Origin: an uncultured Agathobacter sp.
Lineage (GTDB): Bacteria; Bacillota; Clostridia; Lachnospirales; Lachnospiraceae
Reading direction: 5' to 3'
NCBI GenBank assembly: GCA_945910395.1
Contig: CAMDYX010000016.1
Location: 1 to 50,667 of the forward strand
DNA length: 50,667 nucleotides
The position numbers and the translations under genes are program-made. The notes beneath the pieces are model-generated. The model had not been told where the DNA came from. It searched no databases and was given only the letters and a program-made list of their open reading frames with translations. Shown in pieces: positions 22,814-47,210 of this stretch (within the stretch, counting starts at the first letter, position 1; each line of letters starts with the position of its first letter).

Positions 22814-22846
22814 AATAAAAAGTTTTGAAATATCAAAACTTTTATT
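22814..22846. promoter_or_regulatory. Inverted repeat touching the defence-operon promoter
   Basis: AATAAAA then GTTTTG (22814-22827) mirrors CAAAAC then TTTTATT (22834-22846). It ends inside the -35 box at 22845. It could be the operator for the XRE protein or a terminator for the upstream microproteins. The 203 bases from 22741 to 22943 hold no gene. Confidence 0.5.
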
Positions 22847-22873
22847 GAGATTTAGGGGCTCATGTGTTAAAAT
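22845..22873 (+). promoter_or_regulatory. Promoter of the defence operon
   Basis: TTGAGA at 22845-22850 and TAAAAT at 22868-22873 are 17 bases apart, and TG one base before the -10 box makes it an extended -10 promoter. It lies 70 bases before the XRE gene. No other promoter of this quality is seen before the terminator at 44536. Confidence 0.65.
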
Positions 22874-22943: not shown

Positions 22944-23153
22944 ATGGCAGTAAGCTATAAAAAATTGTGGCACATGTTACTCGATAAAGATATGAAGAAG
23001 AAGGATCTACAAGAACTCGCAGAATTAACACCATATGCTATGAATAAACTGAGTAGGGACGAAGATGTCACAACAGAGACTTTAGGAAAAATATGTAAGG
23101 CACTTCAATGTACAACAGACGATATTATGGAGTTCACAGATGATTCAAAATAA
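22944..23153 (+). CDS. XRE-type HTH regulator of the defence operon
   Basis: The 69-residue protein is one Cro/C1-type helix-turn-helix domain (M-K-K-K-D-L-Q-E-L-A-E-L-T-P-Y-A-M-N-K-L-S-R, then T-L-G-K-I-C-K-A-L-Q-C). CGGAGG precedes the ATG. Single-domain XRE proteins at the head of defence operons usually repress their own promoter; the inverted repeat at 22814 is a candidate site. It lies 27 bases before sspD. Confidence 0.85.
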   Translation: MAVSYKKLWHMLLDKDMKKKDLQELAELTPYAMNKLSRDEDVTTETLGKICKALQCTTDDIMEFTDDSK

Positions 23154-23180
23154 TTAGTCCCACATGAAAGGAATTATGTA

Positions 23181-24929
23181 ATGATTCGGTATCACTGTCC
23201 TAAATGTGATTTGGATATAAATAAAAGTGAGTGTTCAATTTGTGGAAGCAGAGCAACCGTTGAAAGCAAATTATATTGGTGTCCAACATGTAATATTCCG
23301 CTGTATGATGAGGAATGCTCAATTTGCCATGAGAGGGGATCATATTTTACTTCGGACGCTAGACCTGTTTTTCCAGAGGAAAGGCTCCTTCTGGAAATAC
23401 TAATTGGGAAACCGCTTTGCTTTTTGAAAGATTCAGTATGGAATGGAACCGGTAATAGATATTACGTCAATGGAAAAAAGATATCTGTTTCAATAAGTGA
23501 TTTGATAAAAAAAGATCCTGATGATATTAGACAACAGCTTGAAAAATATAGTTTAGAGAATACATATAGATATTTTGACGAATATATATCAAAATGGGTA
23601 GCCGCTAATACGGAACATTTTGACTTTATCACTACAGAAGCAAAACAATATATTAATGATTTTTCGGCTCGCTTTATAAACAACGATGTAAATGCTGCTT
23701 TTGTTTCTTTTTCCGGAGGTAAAGATTCCACAGTAGTAAGCGATTTGGTCCGTAAAGCCCTTGGAAATCCATCCATCATTCATATTTTTGGAAATACTAC
23801 TTTGGAATTTCCTCAGACATATGATTACATTGAAAGATTTAAAAAAATAAATCGTAAGACTCCGGTTTTACGCGCAGAGAATAAGGAACAAGATTTTTTT
23901 AACTTGTGTGAATCCTTTGGACCGCCCAGCAGATCTTTGAGATGGTGCTGTACCATTTTTAAGACAGGTTTCATTGGTGACAAGATAAAAAAGACTTTCG
24001 ATGACAAAAAAACTGTACTTACTTTTTACGGGATACGTAGGAGTGAGTCTGCAAGTAGAAGTAATTATGAACGTTCGTCTGAGGGAAAGAAAATTAGTAA
24101 ACAACTAGTTGCGTCTCCTATTATCGACTGGATGGACTTTGATATTTGGTTATATCTACTTACTACGAAGATTGATTTTAATACGGCATACAGACAGGGA
24201 TATACAAGAGTAGGATGCTGGTGCTGTCCAAATAATAGTTCGTGGTCGCAATTTTTGGCCTCTATTTATATGCCTGAGCAGTATAAGAGATTCAATGGTA
24301 TGCTCATTGATTTTGCTAAGAAAATGGGAAAGAGCGATCCAGAAGAATATGTTACTAGTGGTGGCTGGAAGGCTAGGCAAGGTGGTGCTGGAATTGAATT
24401 AAGCAAAAATGTGGCTATCGAGTTTAAACCATGTGCAACGGATGCTTCTAGTTTTAATTATTCGTTGAATAAGCCGATTACGAAAGAAATGTATGAATTC
24501 TTTAAGCCTTTTGGCGTCCTGAATTTTGAAATGGGTAAGGCAAGACTGGGCGAAGTATACATTTTAGATGCGCATAGTCAACAACCAATTATGAAATTGC
24601 AGGGAAGAATAGGAACAAAAGATTTAAGAATTAGTATTTTGAACACGCCTATTGCTGCACGAACTAAAACGGTTGAGATAGAACTGAAATTCAAATGCCA
24701 GATTACAAAATACCAGCTCTGTGTTGGTTGCCATGCATGTGAAAACGCTTGTAAGCATAACGCTATAAAACTTATTAAGAATGGCCCGGGCGATAGCGAT
24801 TATGAATACAAGATTGATGAAGATAAATGCGTTCACTGTTTTGAATGTATCAATCATTATCCTGGTGGATGCTTTATGAGAAGAGTATTGTTGCCTCGGG
24901 GAAAGGGATATTTAGAAGATGACAAATAA
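23181..24929 (+). CDS. sspD: SspD-like PP-loop sulfurtransferase (PAPS reductase family) with ferredoxin domain
   Basis: The 582-residue protein has three visible parts. Residues 1-50 form a double zinc ribbon (Cys6, 9, 18, 21, 34, 37, 46, 49). The central PAPS-reductase/PP-loop domain has S-F-S-G-G-K-D-S (176-183), W-C-C (256-257) and C-W-C-C (346-349), so it may also hold a cluster as DndC does. Residues 514-564 form a two-cluster ferredoxin-like domain (C-V-G-C-H-A-C, then C-V-H-C-F-E-C). SspD and DndC are ATP pyrophosphatases that activate the DNA backbone for sulfur insertion. Context decides for SspD over a metabolic PAPS reductase or BREX type 4 BrxP. It overlaps the DUF4007 gene by 11 bases. 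Confidence 0.82.
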   Translation: MIRYHCPKCDLDINKSECSICGSRATVESKLYWCPTCNIPLYDEECSICHERGSYFTSDARPVFPEERLLLEILIGKPLCFLKDSVWNGTGNRYYVNGKKISVSISDLIKKDPDDIRQQLEKYSLENTYRYFDEYISKWVAANTEHFDFITTEAKQYINDFSARFINNDVNAAFVSFSGGKDSTVVSDLVRKALGNPSIIHIFGNTTLEFPQTYDYIERFKKINRKTPVLRAENKEQDFFNLCESFGPPSRSLRWCCTIFKTGFIGDKIKKTFDDKKTVLTFYGIRRSESASRSNYERSSEGKKISKQLVASPIIDWMDFDIWLYLLTTKIDFNTAYRQGYTRVGCWCCPNNSSWSQFLASIYMPEQYKRFNGMLIDFAKKMGKSDPEEYVTSGGWKARQGGAGIELSKNVAIEFKPCATDASSFNYSLNKPITKEMYEFFKPFGVLNFEMGKARLGEVYILDAHSQQPIMKLQGRIGTKDLRISILNTPIAARTKTVEIELKFKCQITKYQLCVGCHACENACKHNAIKLIKNGPGDSDYEYKIDEDKCVHCFECINHYPGGCFMRRVLLPRGKGYLEDDK

Positions 24930-25821
24930 TCTAAGCAAAGTCCGATTAAAAGGTAATGAATCCTTTAACTTTAGAGAGGGTTGGTTACGAAAAGGTGTCC
25001 GGTGCATTGAGGAACACCCTGATCTGTTCTCACGTGATGATGTGATGGAACGTCTTGGTGTCGGAAGTAAAATGGTGAAATCCATTAAGTATTGGCTATT
25101 GGCCACTAATTTATGTCGCGAAAAAATAGAAAAGAATGGTCACAAATTTTACCTTACAGAAGATTTTGGTCAGATTATTGACAAGCATGATAAGTATTTT
25201 GACGATTTATCAACCTTGTTTTTTATTCATTATCAGATGATATCCAATGACAATCTATGCATGATATGGAACATATTTTTTAATGAGTATTCTGGCAAGG
25301 ATTTCACAAAAGAAGATATGGTTTCTTCTTGCAAAGAATTGCTTAACAGGAAGATGGCGGAGGGAGCAACTTATTCCGAAAAACTTTTAGAAGATGATTG
25401 TTCCAGTGTTTTAAAAATGTATCTTCCGTCAACAAATACGGATGATCCAGAAGACAGTTTATCTTGTCCACTTGGTGAACTAGGCTTGTTACAGAAGAGC
25501 GCTGAAAAGAAGGGCTCATATGTGAAAATGTCCCCAAGTAAAGGAACACTCGATAAGTTGGTAGTGCTGTATGTCATGACGAAAAACATGCCTGAAGGCA
25601 AGAATTCGGTCAGTATCGATGATTTAATATCTGCTCCCAATAATATTGGTAGAGTTTTTAACTTAGACCGAGCACAAATAAATGAGTACTTGGATGAACT
25701 TAGAGTTACAGGTCACTTGACTATTAATCGAACTGCCGGATTGGATATGGTTTATTTTGATAACATTTTAGAGCCGTCCAAGATAATGGAACAATACTAT
25801 AAGACTGTCCAGGAGATGTGA
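24919..25821 (+). CDS. sspB: SspB-like DUF4007 protein
   Basis: The 300-residue protein matches DUF4007 well: F-N-F-R-E-G-W-L-R-K-G, L-G-V-G-S-K-M-V-K-S-I-K-Y-W-L-L-A-T, L-F-F-I-H-Y-Q-M-I-S, W-N-I-F-F-N-E-Y and E-D-S-L-S-C-P-L-G-E-L-G-L. In the known Ssp system SspB is the DUF4007 protein with DNA-nicking activity needed for single-strand phosphorothioation. The N-terminal part looks like a winged helix for DNA binding. It overlaps sspD and sits four bases before the ATPase gene, the sspB-sspC order. A diverged second copy is at 39470. Confidence 0.82.
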   Translation: MTNNLSKVRLKGNESFNFREGWLRKGVRCIEEHPDLFSRDDVMERLGVGSKMVKSIKYWLLATNLCREKIEKNGHKFYLTEDFGQIIDKHDKYFDDLSTLFFIHYQMISNDNLCMIWNIFFNEYSGKDFTKEDMVSSCKELLNRKMAEGATYSEKLLEDDCSSVLKMYLPSTNTDDPEDSLSCPLGELGLLQKSAEKKGSYVKMSPSKGTLDKLVVLYVMTKNMPEGKNSVSIDDLISAPNNIGRVFNLDRAQINEYLDELRVTGHLTINRTAGLDMVYFDNILEPSKIMEQYYKTVQEM

Positions 25822-25825
25822 TTAT

Positions 25826-28800
25826 ATGAAGTATTCTAAGATTATAGAAACAAATCAAGGTTTTCAGGCGTCAGTCAATCTTGAATTGGATCTGAATAAA
25901 AAAGAAAAAGTAAGTGGATATATTCCTACTGAACAGTCAGTTAAGGTTCTAGGGGAGTTTTTACATTCCTTTTATTATGATACAGACACACAATCAAGAG
26001 CCAATGTACTTATCGGACCTTATGGAAGAGGAAAGACTCATCTTTTACTTGTGCTTACGGCACTAACTTCGATGGATGTCTATGCTTCGAGCGAGTATAC
26101 ACCCAAAGAAGCAAAGGCTATGCAGAAAAAGCTTTGCAGTAAGATCTCATCGGTGGATAAAGAGGTAGGAGCATTAGCTAAAGCCGTTGTTGAGACAGGA
26201 ATTAGGACTCTTCCTGTAGTGATTAACAGCAATTCAAGAGATATCAACCAGTCATTTTTGGTTGCTCTTCATAACGCTTTATCTGCTGCTCAACTGGATG
26301 ATTTATTGCCGAAGACTTACTTTGATTCGGCTTATGATGTTGTGAAGAAATGGGAAAATGAAATCCCTGAAGCATACGACAGGTTTTGCGGAGAATTAAA
26401 AGAATACAAAACGACTGCGGAAAACATATGCATGGGTTTGCAGCAATTTAATAACGATGCATATGATCTGTTTTGTGAAGTATATCCTAAAGTTGCAGCG
26501 GGTATGAAGTTTAGCCCGTTGATGAGCATGGATGTTGTGAAACTATATATGTCTGTTGTCGATGCTTTATGTGAGCAGACTAAGTATTCTGGGATAAACA
26601 TTATATTTGATGAGTTTAGCAAATTTCTTGAGAGCAACCTTGAAAAAAGTCAGATGTACAACATGAAGATTATTCAGGATTTAGCAGAGGCTGCATCTCG
26701 TAGCGGGAAGAAACAAATTCATTTTACTTGCATTACACATAAGGATATTTTGGAGTATTCGACTAGTGACAGTTTTAAGACAGTAGAGGGAAGATTCTCC
26801 AAAATATACTTTGTCGCATCGTCTGAGCAAAGTTATGAATTGATTTCAAACGCAATTATCAAGAAAGATGCATATGAAGATTTTGTAAAGGATAATGCAA
26901 CCGGATTTGGAAATGTGATGAGTCTTTCATCACGCGTAAATGTCTTTAGAGATATAGATGAGTCATCATTTGAAAAGAAGGTTGTTTTTGGGTGCTTTCC
27001 GCTGGCTCCCCTGACAGCATATTCATTGCTGAAAATAAGTGAATTAGTTGGTCAAAATGAGAGGACGCTTTTTACGTTCCTTGCAAATAATAGCGCGAAT
27101 ACATTAGGGGAATTTTTGAACAAAAACCACAAAACCCTTTCATTTATTACGGTTGATTTTATTTTTGATTATTTTGAGGAGTTGTTCCGTAAAGAGGTAT
27201 TCAATGCTCCAGTGCATAGTTTCTGGGCGAAGGCAGATTCTGCTATTAAACAACTGGATGATCCAGCTCAGATACAAATTATCAAGGCAGTAGCAATTAT
27301 AAATATGATTAAGGAAGATGCATTTAAGGCGATTCCTAGTCATATTAAAGCGTCAATATTGATGGGTGATGAAGCTTTTGATCATGCTAGTCAAGAGCTT
27401 CAACGTCAGCATATAATGACCCAACGCGATTCATCAGAATATGTTCTGCTCACTGCTAACGGTGTTGACGTTCAGAAGAGTATTGATAATCAAGTTGAGA
27501 CAAAAGCTATAAAGGTAGATGTTTGCCAAGAACTGAATGATCGTTGTGATTTGGGATATGTAATTCCACATGAGCATAATGATAAAAATTGTTTGCTGAG
27601 ATGCTTTAAAAAAGTATTTATTGCAGCTGATACATTTTGCAAATACAAGAATGCTCAACAAATCTTGGATGAGTATACATATGACGGCGTGATACTTTAT
27701 ATTGTGGATCCTCAGGGTGATTATGCGGAAAAAGTGAAGACCAAAGTCCGCTCTTTCAAAAAGTTCCCTCAAGTTGTTGTTTGCATCTCAAAGGAAGTGT
27801 TTCATGGTGAAGCGATATTAAAGAAGCTTGTTGCCGCTGGTCAGCTTAAGGAGATAGCAGCAAAGAATAATGATATTCATTACTTAGAAGAAATAGAATA
27901 CTTTGAAGAGGATTTGCAAAAACAGGTACAGAGCTTAGTTAATTATCTATATGCTCCATCGTCTGTTAATAGTGCTTTTTTCAATGTGGAAGGCGAACTG
28001 AAGATTACTAGACAAGCTGCATTGATAAGTAGGGTGTCTGAAATTTGCGATTCAGTGTACAAAGCCACTCCAATCGTTAATAACGAGATGGTTAACAAAA
28101 GCCTGTTAAACACACAAAATCTGAAAGGCAGAGATATTGTTGTTGAATGGATACTTAATCATTCTGAAGATTCGGTTATTCCCTGCATGGATGGTTTTGG
28201 ACCTGAAGTCAGTATTTTTAAGTCTGCATTCAAATTCACGGGACTGGATAAAGGAGCCACTGCTAACAATGATGGGCTTAATAAGGTGTTGGCAGAGATA
28301 AAAGCATTTGTTACAAATTGTGAAAATGAAAAGGGGAATTTTAATACTCTTTATGAGAAATTGCTCGGCAAACCTTATGGAATGCGTAAGGGAATCATTC
28401 CGTTATACATTGCATATGTTTTGAGGCCTTATAAAGAGAATGTGGTTTTCTATCATTCCGGAAAAGAGGTTGAGTTATCGGCAGCTGTATTAAGCAATCT
28501 TAATGATTCTCCTGAAAAATATGATCTGCTGATGGAGATGGGTACGCAGGAGCGTGAAAACTATCTTGATGAACTTGATTTAGCTTTTGCAGATTATTCT
28601 GATACTAAAACAGGAAGTGCCAATCGAATTTATTCTATCATGCGTAGCATGCAGAACTGGTACAGAGCGTTGCCGGAGTACTCTAAGAGGTATACCGATT
28701 TTCTTGAATCTGGACAAAAAAGAACGGTTCCAGAATACTACAAAATTTTACGCAGCGATCTTGCAAAGTATGATTTGAATGCAAGAGAGATAATATTTGT

Positions 28801-29416
28801 TCAATGGCGAGATGCCCTTTCAGATGATGGGAATTTGGAGGAATGTGCGGAGAAAATCATGCAATTTAGGCAGGATTTAGATAAGCATATCCAAACATTT
28901 AAGAATGAGTTGTCTGCTATTTTGGTTGCTATGTTTGCTCCTGGATATCAAGGCGGTTTGCCAGTAGCAGTGAGCGCTTGGTATAAAAAGCTACCAGAGA
29001 CAACGAGGCAACATGTTTTTGATGCTAATACGAACGCCCTTCTTACTTTGGCTGGAAGCAAGGCTACATATAATGAAACCGATTTTCTTGATCAGTTAGT
29101 CGAATCATTTGAAGCAATCGGGATTGAAGATTGGAACGATACAACGGCGGATCAATTCAGAAATGACATAGAAGCATCATTACATAAAATAGTAAGCTAC
29201 CGAGAATCCAAGAGCGAAGATCGTGCCGAATGTAAGGTTGCTATCTCAATGCCTGGTATGGTAGTAGAGAAAAACTTTTCTGCTGAAGATATCTCACCTT
29301 TGGCGACCACGGCGTTAAATAACCTTTCGTCTATTTTTGACGAATATAATGATTCACTTGAACCAGATGAGAAAATAGCGATTTTAGCAAAACTTATAGG
29401 GAAAGTAATTCAGTGA
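25826..29416 (+). CDS. sspC: SspC-like large P-loop ATPase
   Basis: The protein (1196 residues) has Walker A near its start (G-P-Y-G-R-G-K-T, Lys70) and Walker B I-N-I-I-F-D-E-F (257-264, Asp262, Glu263). The remainder is a long alpha-helical region without a recognised enzyme motif. Layout and size fit the BrxC/PglY/SspC-type ATPases. In the Ssp system SspC is the ATPase that works with SspB and SspD in modification. The first 60 residues include T-N-Q-G-F-Q-A-S-V-N-L. It follows the DUF4007 gene closely. BREX BrxC is the main alternative, but no pglZ or brxL is present. Confidence 0.75.
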   Translation: MKYSKIIETNQGFQASVNLELDLNKKEKVSGYIPTEQSVKVLGEFLHSFYYDTDTQSRANVLIGPYGRGKTHLLLVLTALTSMDVYASSEYTPKEAKAMQKKLCSKISSVDKEVGALAKAVVETGIRTLPVVINSNSRDINQSFLVALHNALSAAQLDDLLPKTYFDSAYDVVKKWENEIPEAYDRFCGELKEYKTTAENICMGLQQFNNDAYDLFCEVYPKVAAGMKFSPLMSMDVVKLYMSVVDALCEQTKYSGINIIFDEFSKFLESNLEKSQMYNMKIIQDLAEAASRSGKKQIHFTCITHKDILEYSTSDSFKTVEGRFSKIYFVASSEQSYELISNAIIKKDAYEDFVKDNATGFGNVMSLSSRVNVFRDIDESSFEKKVVFGCFPLAPLTAYSLLKISELVGQNERTLFTFLANNSANTLGEFLNKNHKTLSFITVDFIFDYFEELFRKEVFNAPVHSFWAKADSAIKQLDDPAQIQIIKAVAIINMIKEDAFKAIPSHIKASILMGDEAFDHASQELQRQHIMTQRDSSEYVLLTANGVDVQKSIDNQVETKAIKVDVCQELNDRCDLGYVIPHEHNDKNCLLRCFKKVFIAADTFCKYKNAQQILDEYTYDGVILYIVDPQGDYAEKVKTKVRSFKKFPQVVVCISKEVFHGEAILKKLVAAGQLKEIAAKNNDIHYLEEIEYFEEDLQKQVQSLVNYLYAPSSVNSAFFNVEGELKITRQAALISRVSEICDSVYKATPIVNNEMVNKSLLNTQNLKGRDIVVEWILNHSEDSVIPCMDGFGPEVSIFKSAFKFTGLDKGATANNDGLNKVLAEIKAFVTNCENEKGNFNTLYEKLLGKPYGMRKGIIPLYIAYVLRPYKENVVFYHSGKEVELSAAVLSNLNDSPEKYDLLMEMGTQERENYLDELDLAFADYSDTKTGSANRIYSIMRSMQNWYRALPEYSKRYTDFLESGQKRTVPEYYKILRSDLAKYDLNAREIIFVQWRDALSDDGNLEECAEKIMQFRQDLDKHIQTFKNELSAILVAMFAPGYQGGLPVAVSAWYKKLPETTRQHVFDANTNALLTLAGSKATYNETDFLDQLVESFEAIGIEDWNDTTADQFRNDIEASLHKIVSYRESKSEDRAECKVAISMPGMVVEKNFSAEDISPLATTALNNLSSIFDEYNDSLEPDEKIAILAKLIGKVIQ

Positions 29417-29428
29417 TAGGAGCACCAT

Positions 29429-30556
29429 ATGATTTATCTTGATAATGCAGCGACAACATTTCCCAAACCTGACGCTGTTTACAATTATGTTGATTGGGTA
29501 CAACGAAATATTGCGGTTAATACAGGACGGGGAAGTTATCATGTTGCTAGAGAAGCAATGGATATTGTTGAATCCGCGAAAGGAAAGCTGGCAAGGCTTG
29601 TTCATGCTAACTCAAGTGAATCTGTAGTTATTACCCCTTCAGCAACAATTGCAGCAAATGAAATTATTGGGGGTATGACTTGGGATAATTTTAAAAATGT
29701 ATACGTCACGCCATTTGAACATAATGCAGTAATGAGACCGCTGGAGCGAATGAAGAATCTATATGGTGCAAATGTTTTTATATTACCATTTGATCCAAAA
29801 ACACAAGAACTCGATGAAGATGAAATGAATAGATTATTTACTATTCATACTCCAGATTATGTATTTATCAACCAAGTCAGCAATGTTACGGGAGTAATCA
29901 TTCCGGTTGAAAAGATTGCAGCAACAGCTAAGAACTATGATGCAGTTGTGGTGGTAGATGGTTCCCAATCTGTAGGGCTATTGGATATAGATTTAAGGAA
30001 ACTGCCGGTTGATTTCTTGATATTTGCTGGTCATAAAAATATATATGCATCATGGGGGATAGGCGGCTTTGTAATTAACTCTGATAGCAGATTGCAACCG
30101 TTCATAACGGGCGGAACGGGATCTGATTCATTAAAGCTTTCGGTTGATGATTTGGAGGTCGGAAGTCCAAATATTATTTCCATAGCAAGTATGGACAAAG
30201 CAATTGATTGGCTTAATGAGATAGGAATTTCAAGTATAGCGACCCATAAGGATCGGATGATAAGAGAACTGATAGAAGGTCTGAAAGATTCAAAGGTGGA
30301 AATGTACCTACCTGGAGATTTGAAGAATCACACCTCTGTGGTCTCATTTAATATTCCAGAATATGAACCTTCTGAGGTAGGGATTATATTGGATCAGGAC
30401 TTTGATATTGCGGTTCGTACCGGATTTCATTGTGCACCTTTGATACATAAACTCATTGGAACAGAAACAAAGAAAGGTACCGTTCGAGTAAGTGTCGGAT
30501 ACTTTAATACAGATGACGATATACACAAGTTTGTAGCTGCAGTTAAAGACATATAG
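29429..30556 (+). CDS. sspA: SspA-like cysteine desulfurase
   Basis: The 375-residue class V aminotransferase has Y-L-D-N-A-A-T-T at its start, His98 in F-E-H-N-A, the cofactor aspartate in V-V-V-D-G-S-Q (Asp177), the PLP lysine in A-G-H-K-N (Lys203) and the persulfide cysteine in R-T-G-F-H-C-A-P (Cys335). It would take sulfur from cysteine and pass it to the PP-loop enzyme. Its place inside the operon, with no iron-sulfur scaffold gene nearby, argues for SspA/DndA rather than housekeeping IscS or SufS. Confidence 0.85.
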   Translation: MIYLDNAATTFPKPDAVYNYVDWVQRNIAVNTGRGSYHVAREAMDIVESAKGKLARLVHANSSESVVITPSATIAANEIIGGMTWDNFKNVYVTPFEHNAVMRPLERMKNLYGANVFILPFDPKTQELDEDEMNRLFTIHTPDYVFINQVSNVTGVIIPVEKIAATAKNYDAVVVVDGSQSVGLLDIDLRKLPVDFLIFAGHKNIYASWGIGGFVINSDSRLQPFITGGTGSDSLKLSVDDLEVGSPNIISIASMDKAIDWLNEIGISSIATHKDRMIRELIEGLKDSKVEMYLPGDLKNHTSVVSFNIPEYEPSEVGIILDQDFDIAVRTGFHCAPLIHKLIGTETKKGTVRVSVGYFNTDDDIHKFVAAVKDI

Positions 30557-30568
30557 GGAGGCTGTTTT

Positions 30569-32356: not shown

Positions 32357-32368
32357 AAAGGGGGAATA

Positions 32369-33877: not shown

Positions 33878-33878
33878 T

Positions 33879-36800: not shown

Positions 36801-39470
36801 TCTCATGAGTGCTGTAAGTGGGTTGTTTGTGTAGATTCAGCTATTGATAGACATATGCTGGAGACAAATAAGAGTAAAATTATAGGTTTTACTACCGGTG
36901 AAGGTAGTTATGGGGAATTAAATGTAACAGTTTCTGCTCGAAAGGATATATTGGCAGACATCAAGCAGATGCTTCGAAAGAGAATAACGGAGAAGTTTGC
37001 TAATTGGGATGAAAACAGACTCCAAGAAGCAGCCAATTATTGCGTGGATGAACTTTCTCAATATATGGATGGTAGTCGTATTCTAAAAGCTCTTAATCCA
37101 TATGATTATGAGATTCACAGCTTTTTGGCTTATTTGTTGACATTGCAAATGTTGGGAATTCCGGAGAAGGATGATAAGTACTTACTTCGTTCACTTATTA
37201 GTCTTGATTCCTATAAACACTGGTTCGAAGAAGATGATATTTTGAATCCGGATAATAAAAGACCAGACTTTATGCTGCTTGAGATCCCAAATACTCAGGA
37301 TAATCTTGATCCCAATAAAAAACTGCATCTGGATGTAAAGATAATTGAATGCAAGATGGGGTATAAGAGTGAAGGACATTTAGCAAAAGCTCAGACACAG
37401 CTAGAAAAAGGCATAAAAACAATGAGCTCTAACTGGAATCCTAATAACGAAGATATAATGCATCGTTATTGGCTGAACCAGCTGTATAGAGCCATAATCT
37501 TTACACAATTGGATATGGATAATACCTCAACAGAGTACGCTATTATTCGAGATAAAATCTATGGGATATTACGTGGGAATTATAGTATTACTTGGTCGGG
37601 GGATATTTTTGCCTTTTGGCTTGATTCTAATGCAGATAAGCCTGACGAATGGACTATCGAATCAGCGGAGTTAGATAGAATTGTAGATATAGAGTTGGGC
37701 GATTTAATATGCCATAACTGCGGGCAGATGTTTATTCAGAAGATGCTTTTGCCTTCTGAAAAGCGAAATGAAAATTTTGTATATAACGATATTTCCGATC
37801 CCAATCTCGAGGAACCTGAGGAGGAAATGATAGGGGAAGAAGATGCTGTTGAAGGAACCGTGGAACCGCAAAATGGAAATGGACAATCCATCCCTAAATT
37901 GGCGGATGTATTAGGACCATTTGTTGCGGCTCTTAATGATGGTCAATTACATTCACGCAGAAATGATTTGGTATGGTTCTCGGAATATTTCCACATTTTG
38001 CCTCAGGATAAGCATGTAATGTATGAGAGCAATGGGCATCCGAAGTGGGAAACTGTTTTAGACTTTGCCATTACTGAATTGCGAAAAGACGGATTAATTG
38101 AGAATACTGAGATAGGAAAGTATTCGTTGACCACATTTGGTATGACGCTGGCTGAACATATGGAAGCCAAGAGCGAAGAAGAAACATTTTCTAAATTCGT
38201 AGAGAGGATCAAGAATGAAGCACATGCAGAGGATGTGCTAGTTACAGAAACTGAGACTAATGTTGTTAATCAGAAAGAAGATAATAATGATAAAACAGAA
38301 GTACCGGTTCCTGAACCAGAAGCAATTGATAAAAAACCTGAAGGCGTTGAAGGAGTTCGACTGTTAATCGGAGAAGATTTACGAACAAAAGAAAAGTATT
38401 ATTGGGAATTTGGTAATAAAAATCTTAATAATAGACATCTATTGATTAACGGAAATTCTGGCTGCGGAAAAACGTATTGTATCCAGACGCTACTTATGGA
38501 AGCCGCTCAACAGGGAGTATCTTCAGTTGTGTTTGATTATACGGGCGGTTTTGCGAGTAGTAAACTGGACCCGATTTTCAAGGAAACATTAGGTGACAAA
38601 ATAAAGCAGCGTGTGGTTAAAATAGCGAAAATACCTGTGAATCCGTTTGAGAAGAATGATATACAAATTGATGAAGATATTTTCGTACCGGAAGAAGATG
38701 CAGATGTTGCGGACAAAATAGCAGAAATCTTTAAAGCTGTTTATGATTTGGGTGATCAGCAGAAAAGTGCAGTTTATTCTGCAGTTCTGAATGGATTGAA
38801 GATTCACGGAAGCAATATGTCTTTTCCGGTGATGGTAGAGGAACTTGAGAACATAGGTACTAATTACGCAAAGACTGTAATAAGTAAGATTCAAGCGTTC
38901 TCAGATTTTAATCCTTTTGCAGTCGATGAGTCGTTTAGCTGGTCAGATATTCGCGACTCTGAGGGTATGGTTTATGTATTTCAACTTGCGGGATATGGAC
39001 GAGACATTCAGGTACTTCTTACAGAAATCCTACTGTGGGATATCTGGAATTTCTGTGTCAAAAATGGAGATGAATCCAAGCCTTTTATTCTGGTGATGGA
39101 TGAGGCTCAGAATCTGAGTCATGGTGAGAAGTCCCCTAGTGCCAAGATTCTTACTGAAGGCCGCAAATTTGGAATTTCAGGTTGGTACGCTACTCAGTTT
39201 ATGAAACCTCAGCTTAGTGACGATGAAATCCAAAGGTTACAGCAGGCCGGCCAAAAACTCTATTTTTGCCCGCCGGATGATGGGGTGACGACTATCGCAA
39301 AAAATATTGACATTACGGCACAAGGAGCTAAAGAGTGGGCAGACCGTCTTAAGAAGCTCAAAAAGGGTGAATGCGTTACTTGCGGAAACATGGTACGTAA
39401 CGGAAAGTGGTCTAAGTATGAGCCAAGGATTGTTAAGATATCAAGTTTGCAAGAGAGGACGGAGAGTTAA
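33879..39470 (+). CDS. sspH: SspH/DptH-like giant protein with nuclease-like and HerA ATPase domains
   Basis: From the ATG at 33879 (behind AAGGAGG) the protein has 1863 residues; a frame open from 33831 overlaps sspG and lacks a site. The C-terminal HerA/FtsK-like ATPase has Walker A G-N-S-G-C-G-K-T (1525-1532) and Walker B I-L-V-M-D-E-A-Q-N (Asp1741, Glu1742). Upstream, R-P-D-F-M-L-L-E (Asp1130) and I-I-E-C-K-M-G (Glu1157, Lys1159) form a PD-(D/E)xK nuclease pattern with normal spacing. An acidic linker joins the two. This would be the DNA-damaging, DNA-moving subunit. It overlaps the next start by one base. Confidence 0.78.
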   Translation: MKQLIAFLDKRIKEQISVGKANIVRLESFDNPIIYKSVCEELKKDNRIDKLIMKLSNEKYSEYSQESRTEWEHALQYLHQGHNSLYSESLNDIYIDKSFVDFNNALTKWRNELATISAGETALLLLMGSEAAPDTGGLADTSFAITPKEVISELKDNYSSWFKTVLENNGIDDSDSAKAINTLYRAIFSSVNIDLLRLSDFIDSLEDMTFTSSQDLIAYICETLNETWDIPSIVDYKSVPKVQNLAKGTLKSAKIVTDGIGFIDRVEDIPTQSAIAKLEKKFEKYASDTGINIDMPFPPVDVIFDDFGGFKNCVIDFMSGRNLEQNRTRLLKVDYAYISKILGTKLKKDPGSKTVLISGEPMEAIGKMACNAMLQFREGHNCYPTRVVYRMDHVSLSDCTEEQKDDSYMHICNYMGGLLDFISNEVVAVEDQSVSFEYDQDKDPFDFNNFDDFQNKIKCSGKWGDPCKISFTVTVVSEAGEEERYEYKWAFSPNSPWLNAFSYLGNVLSRVGDSYVLPTMVVCKNIQDFLNCESEDDFYAQLSQIREDIPFEEHRSELRKYFNDTEPLALFDSLCAEFKNFSVGLIKNGLFNSLESLRKVVDIYTKMMDSTYQKFDGFSDVQREKLSLLVNCFVMTSNDEVINTGEMKEVIVPAYNPIMLEKIDAKVLFIRAGLNELLASLSTKKAVCDKEIENLIQLSSITQAMDTINHSGTNYLICRGMWEYYAVYYDGTVDIDSISGNSFGSSIVTDDEDASAMLHVSPMSNIVVRNVLDYIRTFPARMDGLKVAFVGPEDMQHIVAAIHAIAKNLEKQDINATINIEIICINSKKNSTSYLRKWLDSYFSDEKSVKVNTYLKNLVIRSKEDVENIRGLIKEYDLCFNYDVLGTVGVEFEPNMDEEIDKNLIKFPMTFTPDTIPATHGKSRKVCISQYQFLASKSQTQISHVIGNPHTVKKTYKAFKKLELSETSSKLIEISHECCKWVVCVDSAIDRHMLETNKSKIIGFTTGEGSYGELNVTVSARKDILADIKQMLRKRITEKFANWDENRLQEAANYCVDELSQYMDGSRILKALNPYDYEIHSFLAYLLTLQMLGIPEKDDKYLLRSLISLDSYKHWFEEDDILNPDNKRPDFMLLEIPNTQDNLDPNKKLHLDVKIIECKMGYKSEGHLAKAQTQLEKGIKTMSSNWNPNNEDIMHRYWLNQLYRAIIFTQLDMDNTSTEYAIIRDKIYGILRGNYSITWSGDIFAFWLDSNADKPDEWTIESAELDRIVDIELGDLICHNCGQMFIQKMLLPSEKRNENFVYNDISDPNLEEPEEEMIGEEDAVEGTVEPQNGNGQSIPKLADVLGPFVAALNDGQLHSRRNDLVWFSEYFHILPQDKHVMYESNGHPKWETVLDFAITELRKDGLIENTEIGKYSLTTFGMTLAEHMEAKSEEETFSKFVERIKNEAHAEDVLVTETETNVVNQKEDNNDKTEVPVPEPEAIDKKPEGVEGVRLLIGEDLRTKEKYYWEFGNKNLNNRHLLINGNSGCGKTYCIQTLLMEAAQQGVSSVVFDYTGGFASSKLDPIFKETLGDKIKQRVVKIAKIPVNPFEKNDIQIDEDIFVPEEDADVADKIAEIFKAVYDLGDQQKSAVYSAVLNGLKIHGSNMSFPVMVEELENIGTNYAKTVISKIQAFSDFNPFAVDESFSWSDIRDSEGMVYVFQLAGYGRDIQVLLTEILLWDIWNFCVKNGDESKPFILVMDEAQNLSHGEKSPSAKILTEGRKFGISGWYATQFMKPQLSDDEIQRLQQAGQKLYFCPPDDGVTTIAKNIDITAQGAKEWADRLKKLKKGECVTCGNMVRNGKWSKYEPRIVKISSLQERTES

Positions 39471-40297
39471 TGGCAGCAAATAACTTGTTATTCCATGAGA
39501 CATTTCAACCTGAAACGACTTATATTGCCAAAATATTAGAGCTTAGTATAAATGGTTTTTCAGGAGATAAGTTTACCATTAGTGAACTCACTGGAATACC
39601 TACAGGGGATAAAAAAGGAAAAGTTGAGCCACATATAAAATACGCGAAATATATGGGGTTGGTTGATTATTCTTACAGTCGTGGAAATTATGATTTATCT
39701 GCTACAGAACTTGGGAGAGAAGTCTGGGATCAGGACAGATACTTACATGAAACACTTACCTTGTGGCTGATGCATTATATGATTTCACGACCAAACACAG
39801 GAGCGCAACAATGGGCTTACATTGTAAGAGAAATAAACCAAGGCTTTACGGATGATATGTCCTCAACGCATATGGCCGGTTTAATTCAAAAGGAATTTGG
39901 ATTATCGTCAGCAGATGCTACGAAGGCGTTTGGAGTAGTTAAAGGAAGTTACTCGACTGGATGCTTTTCTAATCTGTTCTATTTGACCTGGGAGGATAGA
40001 ATTCAATTTGAGGAAAAAACTGAAAAAATAGAATTTGGATATTTGTATGCATTTGCCTTGCTGAATAGTTGGGATGAGCTCTTTCCGGAGAAGAAAGAGA
40101 TAACTTTCAACGAGGTAATGGAGAATATAGCTTTTGGAAAAGTATTTGGATTAAATGATGAGGACGTTGATTCTGTCCTTAGCACACTTGAAAAAATGGA
40201 TATTATCAGCTTAAACCGTCAACTATATCCGGTTACTATTGTCCGTATGTCGGATGTCGAATCCGTTATTTCCAACTTGTATAGTATGCTGATGTAA
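39470..40297 (+). CDS. Second DUF4007-like protein (SspB paralogue)
   Basis: The 275-residue product resembles DUF4007: F-H-E-T-F at the N-terminus, L-T-L-W-L-M-H-Y-M-I-S in the place of L-S-T-L-F-F-I-H-Y-Q-M-I-S, and a C-terminus with F-G-Y-L-Y-A-F-A-L-L-N-S-W and F-G-K-V-F-G-L-N-D-E-D-V. It is clearly diverged from the copy at 24919, and the C-P-L-x-E-L-G-L motif is absent. Start and stop of neighbours overlap at TAATG. It precedes a giant ATPase, repeating the sspB-sspC order. Whether it nicks DNA, reads the modification or recognises another sequence is unknown. Confidence 0.68.
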   Translation: MAANNLLFHETFQPETTYIAKILELSINGFSGDKFTISELTGIPTGDKKGKVEPHIKYAKYMGLVDYSYSRGNYDLSATELGREVWDQDRYLHETLTLWLMHYMISRPNTGAQQWAYIVREINQGFTDDMSSTHMAGLIQKEFGLSSADATKAFGVVKGSYSTGCFSNLFYLTWEDRIQFEEKTEKIEFGYLYAFALLNSWDELFPEKKEITFNEVMENIAFGKVFGLNDEDVDSVLSTLEKMDIISLNRQLYPVTIVRMSDVESVISNLYSMLM

Positions 40298-40319
40298 TTG
40301 TAATAATGTGAGGTGGATT

Positions 40320-43300
40320 ATGCTCGTAAAAGACTTAGTAAGATTCAACCGAGAAAACTATTATAATGGAGCGGTTCAAACTGACTGGTTTTATGATAAA
40401 AGCAAAGTCAAAAATATAGCTCAAAGCTATGTTTTTCATGGGCCCAAGTATTATGGTGTATCTGATAAAGATGTTAAGTCTGGTGAGCATAAACTAATCG
40501 ATACAGCTTCTTTTTCAAAAATAGTGGTAGAAAAGCTATATGAAAAAGAAGTGGAGAATAATTTCGTTTTAACAATTGCCGGATATGGAACCGGTAAATC
40601 ACATTTGGCTGTTACTTTGGGCGCTTTATTATCTGGAAATTCTGAGCTGCAAAAGGCTGTGGTTAAGAATATTGCCTCAGTAGATAGTCAAATAGCTTCA
40701 GAAATAGAAAAAAGGATTGGAAAAAACAATTTAGTTATAGCTCTGAATGGAATGAAGAATTTCAATCTTGATGCTGAAGTCCTTAGTTCAGTGCGACTTG
40801 CTTTAGAGCAGAATGGTGAAAGTGATGACGTCTTGAAATCACTTACCAAAACTTATGACGTCGCAAAGTATTTTATAAATGAAAACTATGAAAAAAACAT
40901 AGAATTATTTGAAACTGCTGCAGAACAAGTGGGAATCAAGAAACAGGGAAATTCATTAAAGAATTATCTTGAGAAGAACATTGAATCTGATCCAAGTGCA
41001 ATAGATATAGTAAATGTGGTCTTCAAAAAAGTGACAGGAGATTCGCTTCACTGGGAACAGGGTGTTTCTGCAGGTGATATTATCCTTAAAGTGAGCAAAG
41101 AGCTTTGTGGAGAAGGAAAACCTTTTAATAAAGTTCTGATACTATTTGATGAATTTGGTAGATACATTGAATATGTTGCAGCTAACCCTGTTGTGGCTGG
41201 AGATGCTTCTTTACAGCAGATATTCGAAGCTGTTCAGAGCTCTGAAGGCAATGCGGTATTTGTTGGATTTGTTCAGTATGAATTAGAGGCGTACTTAACG
41301 CATATTGACAAGACATCAAATGTCATCAGATATGTCGGCCGATATAGTGCAAGCGAAAAGTATTATCTTTCTTCTAACTTTGAGACTATTCTAGCCAATC
41401 TGCTTGAAAAGCAAGATGAAGGACGCTTTACTCAGTATATTGGCAAGGCTCTTGATAGGTATGTGAATTTCCATAAGAAGGTTCATTCTGCACTTGATAG
41501 ATGGACGGATAATTCTATTCAGAAAAATGTTTGGAAATCAGATGCATTATATCGAAAAGTAATTATGGAAGGATGCTATCCACTGCATCCAATTACCGTA
41601 TGGTTACTATCTAATTCTTCTGGCTGGATGCAGCAGCGTTCAACCATAGCATTTTGTGCTGAAATGTTTGAGGATGTTAGCGACCAAGAAATATCAAATG
41701 ACTGGCTTCCATATGTATATCCTGTAGATATTATAGATTCAGGAATATACTCTGAAATGCTCAATTCTGAAGAAAAAGGGTTAGTTAAGAGTCAGAATTG
41801 TATGCTTTACAATGAAATAATTGTCAAGATAGGCGATAAACTGACGGATGAAGAAAGCCAGATTCTAAAAGCCGTTTTGATAGCACGAATTGCTGGCTTT
41901 AAATTTCATGACAAAGAAGAGGCATTTACTGCGTTCCGTTATTTTACCAATCTTCGAGAAGAAGCTATAAAGCCGGCAGTTAAGAATCTTGAAGATAGAC
42001 ATGGGGTTATTGCCTATGACGACCAAGCAAAGACATATGACTTAATTGCAGAGGCAAATGGATTTAACGAATTTAAGAGAGTGTTTGCTAGGTATAGAAC
42101 AGGAAATTCAGCTGTTATTGATGATATGGACGAGGACCTTATGAAAGAACTGGGTCTGACAGATCCAGTTGATACAGCTTTTGGACAGGATAATCATATT
42201 TCCAGCATGGAATGGAAATTTGAAAAGGAACTGGTTTCGTCGGATGAGATTGATAAAGCTTTTTTGGACAGCGCTATAAGAAATGTCGACTCGGCTAATG
42301 ATGGAGAAGCATACAGAGGATTACTGCTTTATGCATATTGTTCAGAAGACACAGAAAACGAGATTAATCGCTTGGCTGCTCTTTATAATTCATTAGAGAT
42401 GGATAAAGTACCTATTATCATTCTATTTCTTGATGATTCTGAAGGAGAGATCCTTAGAGCTTTAACAGTAAAAAAGACAATGCTCAGATTTTCCTTAGCT
42501 GACAATGAACGTTTCTCGAAACACTTAATGTCCCAAAAAAGGAGTCAAAATAAGAAGATTATACAAACGTTCAATACCATGGTTATGGAGAGAAAGCGAA
42601 TATCCGGTGAAGGGCTTCTTACATATGATGTAAGATTAAATATGCTGTGTTCACGTAAGTTTGCAGAAGTATATTCTACGCCAGTTCCATTTGCGTTTGA
42701 TGGATTTGAAAGTAAACGTTCTGTTCAAGCAAAGAAAACATTTTCAACTCTTTGCATTAAAATGTTTGATCAGACTTTGATGAATGTTCAGAGCTATCAG
42801 GCATTGAACACCGCTGATAAGAATAGAGTGCAGTCATGTCTCTCTGTTGCTGGTAATTCGTCTTGGAAAGTATTTAATAAGGATTGCCAGCTTGTATTGC
42901 CGCAAAATGAACTTATAAAAAAGATTTATTCCGAAGTAGACAGTAGCATTCCTGAAGAAGGAAGCTTTACCGTGGGAAGGTTATTCGGTAAATATCTTCA
43001 TGCCCCTTATGGGATGAATATATACTCATATACTCTTTTCGTAATCTATTTTATTCAAAAGCATGAAAATAAATTAGTATGCTTTTTAGGAAATGAAAAG
43101 CTATCAGCATCGAATCTAAACAGCAATATATTAAAAGATGGAAAACTAAAATTTTCAGAATTACAGCGTATAACGATACAGCGTAATCACAACATGGATG
43201 TTGATGTGGTGGCCGAAATATGCAATGAAATTCTTGAGAATACAGATGTTAACAAGTGTGGAGTCCTTAGAAAACGTTTATCAGATACAATTAGAGTAGA

Positions 43301-44525
43301 GGGAGGTAGTCCACAGAACCAGATAGCAATTGGTCAGGCCGAAATGCGCTTGGATGATGGAGATAGGATAAAAAACAGACTTGATGATCGCCAGATCAAA
43401 ATCAAACAGTACCTAGATGATGCTTTAGCAAAGATGGTTATTCATAAGTTTGTTGGAGTGTTTGACTATCTTCAGGCTGCGACAGGAGTGATAGAAGAGG
43501 GGTTACCTTATACATATTCTTCAGAGTATGTTGAGTTTATGGGAGAATCTATATCCAGAGTAGGTAATTTCCTTGGGGCGCCATTTGAAAAAGCATTAAC
43601 GGTTTTGAGGTGTCCAGATATAACTCAACTGAGTAGTTTTAAAAATGCATACTCCCGCGTTGTAAAAGTATTGAGAGAGCAGGGATATGATAAACAGGCT
43701 GACGCTGCAGAAATTAGAGTCGAAGAGGTTGAGGCCGAGATAAAAGCCAGAAACCAGTATAATCAAGCATTGGGTGAATGCGAAAAGGATATTGCAATCA
43801 ATAATGATGTCTCGAAGTATAGCTATGGTGAATGTGATTCTGTTGCAAGCAAATTAGAAGGCTGGAAGAAGTTTTTTGCAGAAACAGACATGCCGACTTC
43901 ACTATCAGCACCATTATTAGAAAAAGTCGAGGAACTATTAAAACGTGTTGATGGACGGAAAAAGGAGATTCTTTCAGAGGTTTCTGAAATAGAGAATGAC
44001 ATTTCCTCTGCAGAAACTTTGGATGATTTATTAAGCGAAGCTGATTCTGCAGAAAATCTATTGTTAGATAATCTACCGGAAGAGATTGAAGAAAAAATTA
44101 AAAATATCATTTCTGCTATATACGACCTGCGGTCTCGAGTTGATAACCTACCGGATTCAATAGATGAATTAGAGGTTGCCGAGAATTATAAAGATGGAGA
44201 ATCGGTATACGATCAGGTGTATTCTGCAGAAGCTGCAAGCAAGAAGGCTAAGCTTATAAGAAAAGAAGAAGAGTGGATTAGAAAAGTTATTATCCCTGTT
44301 GAAGAAGGTGAAGAATTAGATGCACAGAAGTGTACTTCTATGATTGAAAAGCTTCATAATATTCCTGACTTTGCATCAAAAGGAACAGTTGCACGGGCAA
44401 GAGAAGCTTTGGATATTGTAGATAAGAAACTTCACGAGTGTAAAGTACAAGGAGTACTTTCTCTATATAATAGTTTGACTGAAGAAGAAAAAGAAGAATT
44501 CAAAAGTATTATAAGTAAACAGTGA
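40320..44525 (+). CDS. Second giant P-loop ATPase (SspC/BrxC-like) with coiled-coil tail
   Basis: From the ATG at 40320, behind GTGAGGTGG, the protein has 1401 residues. Walker A is I-A-G-Y-G-T-G-K-S-H (Lys93) and Walker B I-L-F-D-E-F-G-R-Y (Asp277, Glu278), a close match in layout to the ATPase at 25826. The Y-G-T-G-K-S-H-L form is also seen in BrxC/PglY and related ATPases. The last third is charged and predicted coiled coil (long runs of E, K, L, D). It is the last gene of the operon and is followed by a terminator. It is not the usual fourth member of an FGH arm as I know it. Confidence 0.7.
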   Translation: MLVKDLVRFNRENYYNGAVQTDWFYDKSKVKNIAQSYVFHGPKYYGVSDKDVKSGEHKLIDTASFSKIVVEKLYEKEVENNFVLTIAGYGTGKSHLAVTLGALLSGNSELQKAVVKNIASVDSQIASEIEKRIGKNNLVIALNGMKNFNLDAEVLSSVRLALEQNGESDDVLKSLTKTYDVAKYFINENYEKNIELFETAAEQVGIKKQGNSLKNYLEKNIESDPSAIDIVNVVFKKVTGDSLHWEQGVSAGDIILKVSKELCGEGKPFNKVLILFDEFGRYIEYVAANPVVAGDASLQQIFEAVQSSEGNAVFVGFVQYELEAYLTHIDKTSNVIRYVGRYSASEKYYLSSNFETILANLLEKQDEGRFTQYIGKALDRYVNFHKKVHSALDRWTDNSIQKNVWKSDALYRKVIMEGCYPLHPITVWLLSNSSGWMQQRSTIAFCAEMFEDVSDQEISNDWLPYVYPVDIIDSGIYSEMLNSEEKGLVKSQNCMLYNEIIVKIGDKLTDEESQILKAVLIARIAGFKFHDKEEAFTAFRYFTNLREEAIKPAVKNLEDRHGVIAYDDQAKTYDLIAEANGFNEFKRVFARYRTGNSAVIDDMDEDLMKELGLTDPVDTAFGQDNHISSMEWKFEKELVSSDEIDKAFLDSAIRNVDSANDGEAYRGLLLYAYCSEDTENEINRLAALYNSLEMDKVPIIILFLDDSEGEILRALTVKKTMLRFSLADNERFSKHLMSQKRSQNKKIIQTFNTMVMERKRISGEGLLTYDVRLNMLCSRKFAEVYSTPVPFAFDGFESKRSVQAKKTFSTLCIKMFDQTLMNVQSYQALNTADKNRVQSCLSVAGNSSWKVFNKDCQLVLPQNELIKKIYSEVDSSIPEEGSFTVGRLFGKYLHAPYGMNIYSYTLFVIYFIQKHENKLVCFLGNEKLSASNLNSNILKDGKLKFSELQRITIQRNHNMDVDVVAEICNEILENTDVNKCGVLRKRLSDTIRVEGGSPQNQIAIGQAEMRLDDGDRIKNRLDDRQIKIKQYLDDALAKMVIHKFVGVFDYLQAATGVIEEGLPYTYSSEYVEFMGESISRVGNFLGAPFEKALTVLRCPDITQLSSFKNAYSRVVKVLREQGYDKQADAAEIRVEEVEAEIKARNQYNQALGECEKDIAINNDVSKYSYGECDSVASKLEGWKKFFAETDMPTSLSAPLLEKVEELLKRVDGRKKEILSEVSEIENDISSAETLDDLLSEADSAENLLLDNLPEEIEEKIKNIISAIYDLRSRVDNLPDSIDELEVAENYKDGESVYDQVYSAEAASKKAKLIRKEEEWIRKVIIPVEEGEELDAQKCTSMIEKLHNIPDFASKGTVARAREALDIVDKKLHECKVQGVLSLYNSLTEEEKEEFKSIISKQ

Positions 44526-44535
44526 TTTTATAGCG

Positions 44536-44567
44536 AATAGCCGCTTCCAGGTTTGAAAGCGGCTATT
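44536..44567 (+). terminator. Terminator of the defence operon
   Basis: AATAGCCGCTT at 44536-44546 pairs perfectly with AAGCGGCTATT at 44557-44567. The T run after it is short. It lies 10 bases after the last stop. Confidence 0.7.
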
Positions 44568-44660
44568 TAGTGTCTTAAGAAGCGACAGGAAAAATTGATG
44601 TAGTGGACCGGCAGACAACCGGCAGACTGGCTGAATGAACACGCCGAAGACTCTTGATTG

Positions 44661-45923: not shown

Positions 45924-46259
45924 ATGGAAACAGAAACAATCGGATCGAGAATTCGTGCAGCCCGAAAGGAGATGGGCTATTCCCAGGAAGAACTGGCTGC
46001 ACTTCTATATATGAAGAAAACCACTATATGCAAATATGAGAAGGATCTGCATGACATACCATCCAGCGTAATCGTTCAGCTGGCAAGGATCCTGCACACA
46101 AGCCCTAATTATTTACTACTGGGAGAAGGTAAAGCAAATCGGTGGAAAGATGATATGATATGCATAATTGAAGAGATAAACTCGCCGATAATGAGACAAC
46201 TTGCGATGGAACAAATGAGAAGTATAGTAAAATATGCGGATAAAAGCATATCAATATAA
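45924..46259 (+). CDS. XRE-family regulator with C-terminal extension
   Basis: The 111-residue protein has an N-terminal helix-turn-helix (I-R-A-A-R-K-E-M-G-Y-S-Q-E-E-L-A-A-L-L) and a C-terminal helical part (E-E-I-N-S-P-I-M-R-Q-L-A-M-E-Q-M) probably for dimerisation. It lies just before the CBASS-like pair and may control it through the palindrome at 46304-46323. Confidence 0.82.
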   Translation: METETIGSRIRAARKEMGYSQEELAALLYMKKTTICKYEKDLHDIPSSVIVQLARILHTSPNYLLLGEGKANRWKDDMICIIEEINSPIMRQLAMEQMRSIVKYADKSISI

Positions 46260-46303
46260 TCTGAAAGAAGAAATGTTCCAAATATCAAATATCATTATGG
46301 TGA

Positions 46304-46338
46304 GTGTACTTTTTAACGTACACCCCGTATGCTATTAT
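46304..46338 (+). promoter_or_regulatory. Operator-promoter of the CBASS-like pair
   Basis: GTGTAC/GTACAC (46304-46309, 46318-46323) is a perfect inverted repeat around TTTTTAAC. TATTAT at 46333-46338 is a possible -10 box, 17 bases after a weak -35 inside the repeat. The TTTTTAAC core and ACACC flank resemble the two cargo-leader repeats at 22467 and 44661. Confidence 0.45.
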
Positions 46339-46387
46339 CTATAGGAAGATTGAAAACAGTAATGATTTATATCGGGAGGAACAAAAG

Positions 46388-47200: not shown

Positions 47201-47210
47201 GGTATTGAGC

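Follow-up and report, generated by a model that had tools for sequence, protein, structure and literature searches.

A second DUF4007/ATPase pair in a putative phosphorothioate restriction-modification operon of an uncultured Agathobacter

The phosphorothioate (PT) system SspABCD-SspFGH of Vibrio anguillarum FF-93 has three restriction genes, one SspB/SspC pair, and an SspFGH module that damages DNA without PT (PMC8092258). The present analysis concerns a ten-gene operon on contig CAMDYX010000016.1 (C16) of an uncultured Agathobacter sp., assembly GCA_945910395.1, whose entire length of 50,667 nucleotides is referred to as the window. The operon shares with the Vibrio system the sspBCD genes together with a cysteine desulfurase, an F-G-H module, a P-loop F, and a HerA/FtsK-like end of H. 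It differs in carrying a DptH-type HerA and a second SspB/SspC-like pair, genes 9 and 10, for which the names B2 and C2 are coined here. As judged from trees and pairwise identities, this pair is an old lineage of its own, and its place within the restriction module is well supported.

Other described systems resemble the operon in part. The DptH-type HerA on H is common to DndFGH/DptFGH, whereas no ABC-ATPase, DndD or DndE match was found among the ten proteins with PADLOC and Pfam, the inclusion of Pbe models in PADLOC being unverified. BREX type 4 (brxPCZL) is described as having a long PAPS enzyme, a DUF4007 protein, a BrxC/SspC-type ATPase and often a cysteine desulfurase (PMC12839542); these components are also present here, but no PglZ or BrxL match was obtained in the operon or the scanned flanking genes, which have FGH instead. 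For BREX-related capture (BRC) systems, the same paper lists a HerA translocase, DUF4007, a BrxC-like ATPase, PglZ, DUF6079 and a STAND NTPase, with no PAPS enzyme listed. The operon shares the HerA translocase, DUF4007 and BrxC-like ATPase, yet DUF6079 is not in the Pfam list of C2, and a PAPS enzyme is encoded.

PbeABCD is similar by analogy only: in the Dnd lineage, too, PT systems can have a scanner pair and a paralogue of it, the additional ABC-ATPase/DndE pair being PbeC-PbeD (PMC10853773). Given that the protein families are unrelated (ABC ATPase/DndE against AAA+/DUF4007), the parallel would be one of design convergence and not of homology. On the Priestia megaterium plasmid pBMG4 (L113), dptFGH is flanked by genes annotated as dndBCDE and, at its opposite end, by another gene annotated as dndD together with a small adjacent gene; these two resemble the second scanner pair of Pbe. 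Neither the ten-gene layout nor a second SspB/SspC pair was described in the literature searched, whose coverage excludes Yuan et al. 2026 (PMC12914056, BREX type 4, gut bacteria); an initial annotation of this DNA had likewise named no described Ssp, Dnd, Pbe or BREX layout with such a pair.

Gene content and the identity of the second pair

Ten plus-strand genes were found at 22944-44525 by open reading frame (ORF) calling, sequence reading and translation, with a largest gap of 27 bases and several overlaps. Nine of them carry the argument and are given here.

23181..24929, + strand: PAPS-reductase/PP-loop enzyme with a C-terminal 4Fe-4S ferredoxin domain, BrxP/SspD-like, predicted to act in sulfur transfer (PF01507, 6.8e-34; Fer4_7, 3.9e-8)
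24919..25821, + strand: SspB (DUF4007), predicted modification-side DNA-binding subunit (PF13182, 1.8e-78; PADLOC SspB, 9e-58)
25826..29416, + strand: SspC, modification-side AAA+ ATPase (PADLOC SspC, 7e-112; Walker A and B motifs)
29429..30556, + strand: cysteine desulfurase in the SspA/DndA role (Aminotran_5, 3.7e-75; PADLOC DndA, 4.7e-44; SspA, 5.9e-44)
30569..32356, + strand: F, SspF-like P-loop NTPase (PADLOC SspF, 1.8e-26; GHAGDGKT motif)
32369..33877, + strand: G, SspG-like protein (PADLOC SspG, 7.5e-25)
33831..39470, + strand: H, SspH/DptH hybrid of 1,879 residues (PD..ECK nuclease motif, Mrr_N, DUF87, DptH-type HerA translocase)
39470..40297, + strand: B2, second DUF4007 protein with an SspB fold, restriction-side (weak DUF4007 match, 3.4e-11)
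40308..44525, + strand: C2, second SspC/BrxC-like AAA+ ATPase of 1,405 residues, restriction-side (PADLOC SspC, 4.8e-13, weak)

The initial annotation had described a tightly spaced co-directional run in which Ssp-like modification genes, FGH-like restriction genes and a second SspB/SspC-like pair follow one another. Both the run and its content were borne out, the latter by Pfam and PADLOC profile searches of each protein, which confirmed the families and assigned none of the genes to unrelated ones. The gene set of an SspBCD phosphorothioation module is complete (PAPS/PP-loop enzyme, DUF4007 SspB, SspC ATPase and cysteine desulfurase), and the cluster probably marks host DNA with sulfur and attacks DNA that lacks the mark.

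The assignment to the SspABCD and SspFGH types held in part. The modification genes match, but the PAPS enzyme is long and BrxP-like and carries a ferredoxin domain (PADLOC BrxP, 1.5e-84, versus SspD, 2.7e-15; the DndC match is weak, 1.4e-11); its SGGKDS motif is present in 10 of 10 loci. On the restriction side F and G match, G also reaching 1.7e-8 against NCBIfam MAD7, far under the cut-off of that model, but gene 8 is a hybrid with an SspH-like middle and a DptH-type HerA end. PADLOC SspH matches it only at residues 968-1267 (1.1e-19), and DndH matches residues 1444-1792 (7.3e-82). The HerA end matches PDB 7es4 (DptH HerA) at 2.9e-5, and the HerA domain is 48% identical to the DptH of the Priestia plasmid over 374 residues. 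The match along the whole length of H that marks canonical SspH was thus not found here; it was found in the H of four plasmid loci (L109-L112), at 2135-2429 bits. The RPD..ECK motif of H is kept in 10 of 10 loci. The called start of H overlaps G by 47 bases and, given that three relatives align only from H residue 13 or 17, position 33879 is the likelier start.

For B2, the structure model presents a full-length SspB fold. In the VIA list for B2, SspB stands at 16 and the rest at 8.7 or less, the absence of other families from that list being uninformative. C2 has a profile-profile match to SspC at 98.9% (2.1e-17, 778 columns). Neither protein has a model of its own in PADLOC 2.0, where they are matched best by the general models for SspB and SspC, and sequence searches of the PDB returned nothing significant for either. 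Catalytic motifs are kept across loci, including Walker A and B of C2, and dN/dS values of 0.11 (C2) and 0.09 (B2) are within or slightly over the range of F, G and H.

Ancestry of the pair and its tie to the restriction genes

Two plasmids, NZ_CP112879 of Pseudanabaena galeata and NC_011961 of Thermomicrobium roseum, hold BREX-4-like loci, each with two DUF4007/ATPase pairs. The window's SspB/SspC are the best match of the first pair, while the second best matches B2/C2 and joins their clade; the HMM scores behind this assignment and behind the six-frame check mentioned below are circular for the rows used in model building, and informative for the other rows. In these loci (L012 and L013), the effector genes come immediately after the related pair, and the SspB/SspC pair is on the PAPS side. 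The second pair of Thermomicrobium is followed by a PglZ-type gene and BrxL, as annotated, and that of Pseudanabaena by a gene without a Pfam match that resembles the Thermomicrobium PglZ (23%, 4.6e-33), and then BrxL. Given that the effectors are PglZ-type and BrxL on the plasmids, and FGH in the window, related pairs occur beside two kinds of effector.

The ATPase tree comprised 46 sequences, 11 of them C2 rows; the C2 of G623, G749, L009, L010 and L049 were excluded as partial or near-identical. The 11 C2 and the second ATPases of the two plasmids form one side of a branch with 100/100 support. Long branches in this tree make the position of the plasmid rows less certain than the position of the 11 C2. 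In the DUF4007 tree, all 14 second-pair proteins (that of genome G590 included) are separated from 24 SspB at 100/99, and the DUF4007 parts of two BREX-4 fusion proteins are on the SspB side. A recent local duplication of the neighbouring SspB/SspC was rejected for the ATPase by the approximately unbiased (AU) test, in which window-type C2 was constrained to group with window-type SspC (p 7.7e-5), and by the trees. The AU test also rejected the pairing of the plasmid ATPases within their own locus. An origin of B2/C2 as plain BREX-4 BrxC imports, tested as L012/L013 Cb with BREX-4 BrxC and G590_Cb, was rejected at p 3.3e-5. On these trees, the second pair is an old and separate lineage. The initial annotation had a second SspB/SspC-like pair added; an addition by copying of the neighbours is not upheld, since the lineage is old, evolves with G and H, and recurs elsewhere.

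Pairwise identities were then correlated gene by gene over 10 loci; two loci on split contigs (G774 and G623) were dropped, and F was not used. PAPS, SspB and SspC are mutually correlated with r of 0.87-0.98, and G, H, B2 and C2 with r of 0.93-0.98, while values between the two blocks are 0.54-0.75. The correlation is 0.95 for C2-H, 0.95 for C2-G and 0.93 for B2-H, versus 0.64 for C2-SspC. The partial Mantel correlation of C2 with H given SspC is 0.92 (p 0.0002), and that of C2 with SspC given H is -0.20 (p 0.89). Given H, both B2 and C2 are untied to PAPS, SspB and SspC, with partial r of -0.37 to -0.03. Moreover, H, B2 and C2 are consecutive in each of the ten loci, with no gap above 66 bases. 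Since the genes fall into two blocks that each co-evolve, {PAPS, SspB, SspC} on the one hand and {G, H, B2, C2} on the other, the assignment of B2/C2 to the restriction module is well supported by the sequences compared.

Two genomes make the division visible, with G-H-B2-C2 of one type next to divergent sspBC. In G678 (L063, L133), the writer is of the long-PAPS type (45-47% PAPS identity to the window group), but the second block, G to C2, belongs to the other type, with 36-56% identity to it; the order is also switched, F-G-H-B2-C2 preceding PAPS-SspB-SspC-cysteine desulfurase, which amounts to a natural swap of writer and restriction modules. In G887, SspB and SspC are 26-37% identical to their own group, and G, H, B2 and C2 are 38-61% identical.

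Recurrence and genomic setting

The pair is a recurring feature and not a local oddity. A search of genome contigs with H yielded six loci, and all six genomes encode C2, but these are not all independent, as L007 and L009 have almost the same C2. Three of the six loci hold the same nine-gene order, from PAPS to C2: a Flavonifractor (L006), a Ruminococcus metagenome-assembled genome (MAG; L007) and a Clostridia MAG (L008), with C2 identities to the window of 46%, 33% and 34-35%, respectively.

A census was made of 398 evenly sampled genomes of the window's phylum, and the loci of all 34 genomes with DUF4007 were annotated. F, G, H, B2 and C2 plus sspBCD are present in nine of the 398 (G000, G620, G714, G800, G887, G933, G678, G623 and G774). 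In G623 and G774 the genes are spread over separate contigs, and physical linkage of the pair is not demonstrated there; an additional check confirmed F in G678 and a fragment of F in G623. The only census genome with canonical SspFGH, G606, has no second pair. Hence, B2/C2 accompany nine of the ten census genomes having sspBCD plus an FGH set, and the variant outnumbers canonical SspFGH 9 to 1, the canonical form having been sought only among the 34 DUF4007 genomes. Across the 398 genomes, a C2 model found the same nine plus a contig-edge fragment in G749, and a DptH-like H model (E<=1e-30) found ten, the nine plus G929, with the H of G606 not among the matches. When a DptH-type H is present in an sspBCD-bearing genome of this sample, the pair is also present (9/9).

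Of the other DUF4007 genomes, G746 and G781 resemble BREX type 4, with a PAPS-DUF4007 fusion, one ATPase and a BrxL confirmed by similarity; no match was found for the gene in the PglZ position of either. G590 (L062) has sspBCD-type genes, a second DUF4007/ATPase pair, a 205-residue protein, and PglZ and BrxL by Pfam. The remaining 21 lack a recognised FGH set and carry a single pair or part of a pair; two of them (G641 and G754) hold short F-like pieces, and several are contig-cut or broken. Further searches were narrower in yield: no relatives were obtained from genome contigs with C2 only, from viral contigs by C2 alignment, or from phages by tblastn with the C2 of G887. Searches with C2 in a family sample (200 genomes) and an order sample (392 genomes) returned only the window's C2 and four SspC-like ATPases, and plasmid searches with H and G gave partial matches only.

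Some loci differ in individual genes. The F of another subtype is about 1,500 residues long in G774 (L066:6375-10835), with a similar length in G620, G800, G887 and G933; that of G774 combines a NERD nuclease-like domain, two kinase domains and the SspF-like NTPase, and matches PglW and MAD6 models. In G929 (L130/L131), dptG and the beginning of dptH are in separate ORFs, and other ORFs lie between them.

At the ends of the operon in the window, three further features were noted.

22845..22873, + strand: promoter-like site (TTGAGA, 17 nt, TAAAAT, with TG; 10/12 matches)
22944..23153, + strand: small XRE/HTH_26 regulator of 69 residues (Pfam HTH_26, 8.4e-18)
44536..44567, + strand: hairpin directly after the C2 stop, a terminator-like stem with a T-poor tail

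The initial annotation had assigned the run one promoter and one terminator. A promoter-like site is indeed in place, but the region holds 11 such sites versus 12.8 in shuffles, i.e., no excess. A stable hairpin does follow C2, within a 61-base stretch (44525-44585) whose fold has an energy of -19.5 kcal/mol and a z of -2.85. The hairpin has few T in its tail, however, and a terminator scan of the plus strand found none. A single transcript for the ten genes is plausible. The XRE gene is probably accessory and not part of the core, an XRE-like stretch being present in 2 of 40 relative loci (G741 and G549up) by tblastn.

The window looks like a conjugative or mobilisable element. Its mobile backbone, at 665-22378 and 48918-50162, includes a recombinase, MobA/MobL, TraG, TrbL, a VirB4/TraG P-loop protein, NlpC/P60, a topoisomerase, a relaxase, a WYL regulator and a Tn916-type integrase. 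The TraG/VirD4-like coupling protein at 7231-8052 (273 residues) covers only positions 222-442 of T4SS-DNA_transf, and may be truncated or broken. A protein with an ArdC N-terminal anti-restriction domain is encoded at 15380-16567, on the same element as the restriction operon. Downstream of the operon, at 45924-47756, there is a CBASS-like set of a helix-turn-helix regulator, a SMODS nucleotidyltransferase (PF18144, 1.8e-41; PADLOC cyclase, 1.9e-132) and a 2TM SLATT_4 effector (3.2e-45). A 97-base tRNA-Thr with anticodon AGT called by ARAGORN at 8290-8386 is probably spurious, no Rfam match at gathering score being found in the window.

A possible division of labour between two scanner pairs

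The proposed reading is a two-module PT restriction-modification system, in which one scanner pair writes PT and its paralogue reads it or licenses attack; we place its probability at about 0.6. The PT chemistry, the attack on unmodified DNA and the reader or licensing role are inferred. Module 1 (cysteine desulfurase, PAPS/Fe-S enzyme, SspB and SspC) would write PT on host DNA, with the first pair guiding sulfur insertion; a DNA-nicking activity that may serve PT installation has been reported for SspB (PMC12707154). Module 2 (F, G, H, B2 and C2) would attack PT-free DNA. Its scanner would be formed by B2, as an SspB-fold DNA binder, and C2, as an SspC/BrxC-type AAA+ ATPase, which together would bind and survey DNA and, where PT is too scarce, load or license FGH, with H contributing a PD-(D/E)xK-type nuclease motif and a HerA translocase. 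In BREX type 1, point mutations uncouple BrxC assemblies, with unequal effects on methylation and restriction (PMC13326643), and a split of labour between two BrxC/SspC-type ATPases is plausible for that reason.

Several observations weigh against this reading. Canonical SspFGH functions with only three restriction genes (PMC8092258), and a six-frame profile search of the fetched stretches found the second pair in none of five canonical SspFGH loci (G606 and the plasmid loci L109-L112, the plasmid control being small, at four of the 19 plasmid records with a G match). With one pair in canonical loci, such a scanner is therefore not always needed. DptFGH loci with a similar HerA also occur without B2/C2, namely that of the Priestia plasmid and that of G929, the latter without Ssp genes and with dptG and dptH in pieces. 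The second-pair ATPase of G590 is outside the C2 clade, while its second DUF4007 protein falls within the second-pair clade, though on a long branch. The partial Mantel contrast rests on 10 loci and appears to be driven by G678 and G887, and the PAPS gene of G887 is not divergent (48-57% to its group). Finally, the AF2 model of C2 is poor (pLDDT 56), and a Foldseek search with it gave nothing at E<=0.001, the BrxC PDB match at E 6.9e-3 being not significant.

Other roles of the pair have to be considered. B2-C2 might be a second writer pair, steering the same sulfur-transfer enzyme to another motif, so that the host would have two PT motifs. The SspB fold of B2, the likeness of C2 to SspC, and the fact that one PAPS enzyme could serve two pairs agree with such a role. 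However, with H controlled for, neither B2 nor C2 follows PAPS, SspB or SspC, the pair adjoins H in all ten measured loci, and in G678, where the writer genes belong to a different type, it is still found with F, G and H. A second writer is quite improbable. The position of related pairs beside BrxL-type effectors, and the frequency of ORC/Cdc6-type ATPases in defence systems (PMC10853773), would instead suit an independent backup effector or phage sensor that does not read PT, e.g., an oligomerising AAA+ protein that halts DNA replication. Given the tight co-evolution of the pair with G and H, and the presence of H in all nine census genomes with sufficient C2 sequence (the tenth being the contig-edge C2 fragment), we consider such an effector unlikely.

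A purely structural part would leave self/non-self recognition to G or H alone, the pair serving as a scaffold that assembles FGH on DNA. Canonical SspFGH does discriminate PT without the pair (PMC8092258), and DndG has been proposed as the DNA-recognising subunit that discriminates modification (PMC10853773). A scaffold, however, has no obvious need for a conserved SspB-like DNA-binding partner or for kept Walker A and B motifs; this is weak evidence. We see a scaffold as very unlikely.

The two-module reading would bear on a question that has been called fundamental: in PT systems most target sites are unmodified, and self and foreign DNA are still told apart (PMC8053081). A more tentative and rather doubtful extension is that two unrelated PT lineages independently doubled their scanner pair, one for writing and one for attack (DndD-DndE with PbeC-PbeD, and SspB-SspC with B2-C2), and that B2-C2 acts as a dedicated reader, moving or ring-type, which surveys PT along extended stretches of DNA and sets FGH free only where too little PT is present. 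If true, a reader that samples over long stretches would answer how PT systems spare a mostly unmodified host genome. In BREX type 1, a single BrxC takes part in both jobs, and their dissection requires point mutation (PMC13326643). Here, the writer and the putative reader have separate, recognisable scanner pairs, and the two jobs would be removable one at a time. The two scanner pairs may thus help to explain how self and foreign DNA are discriminated.

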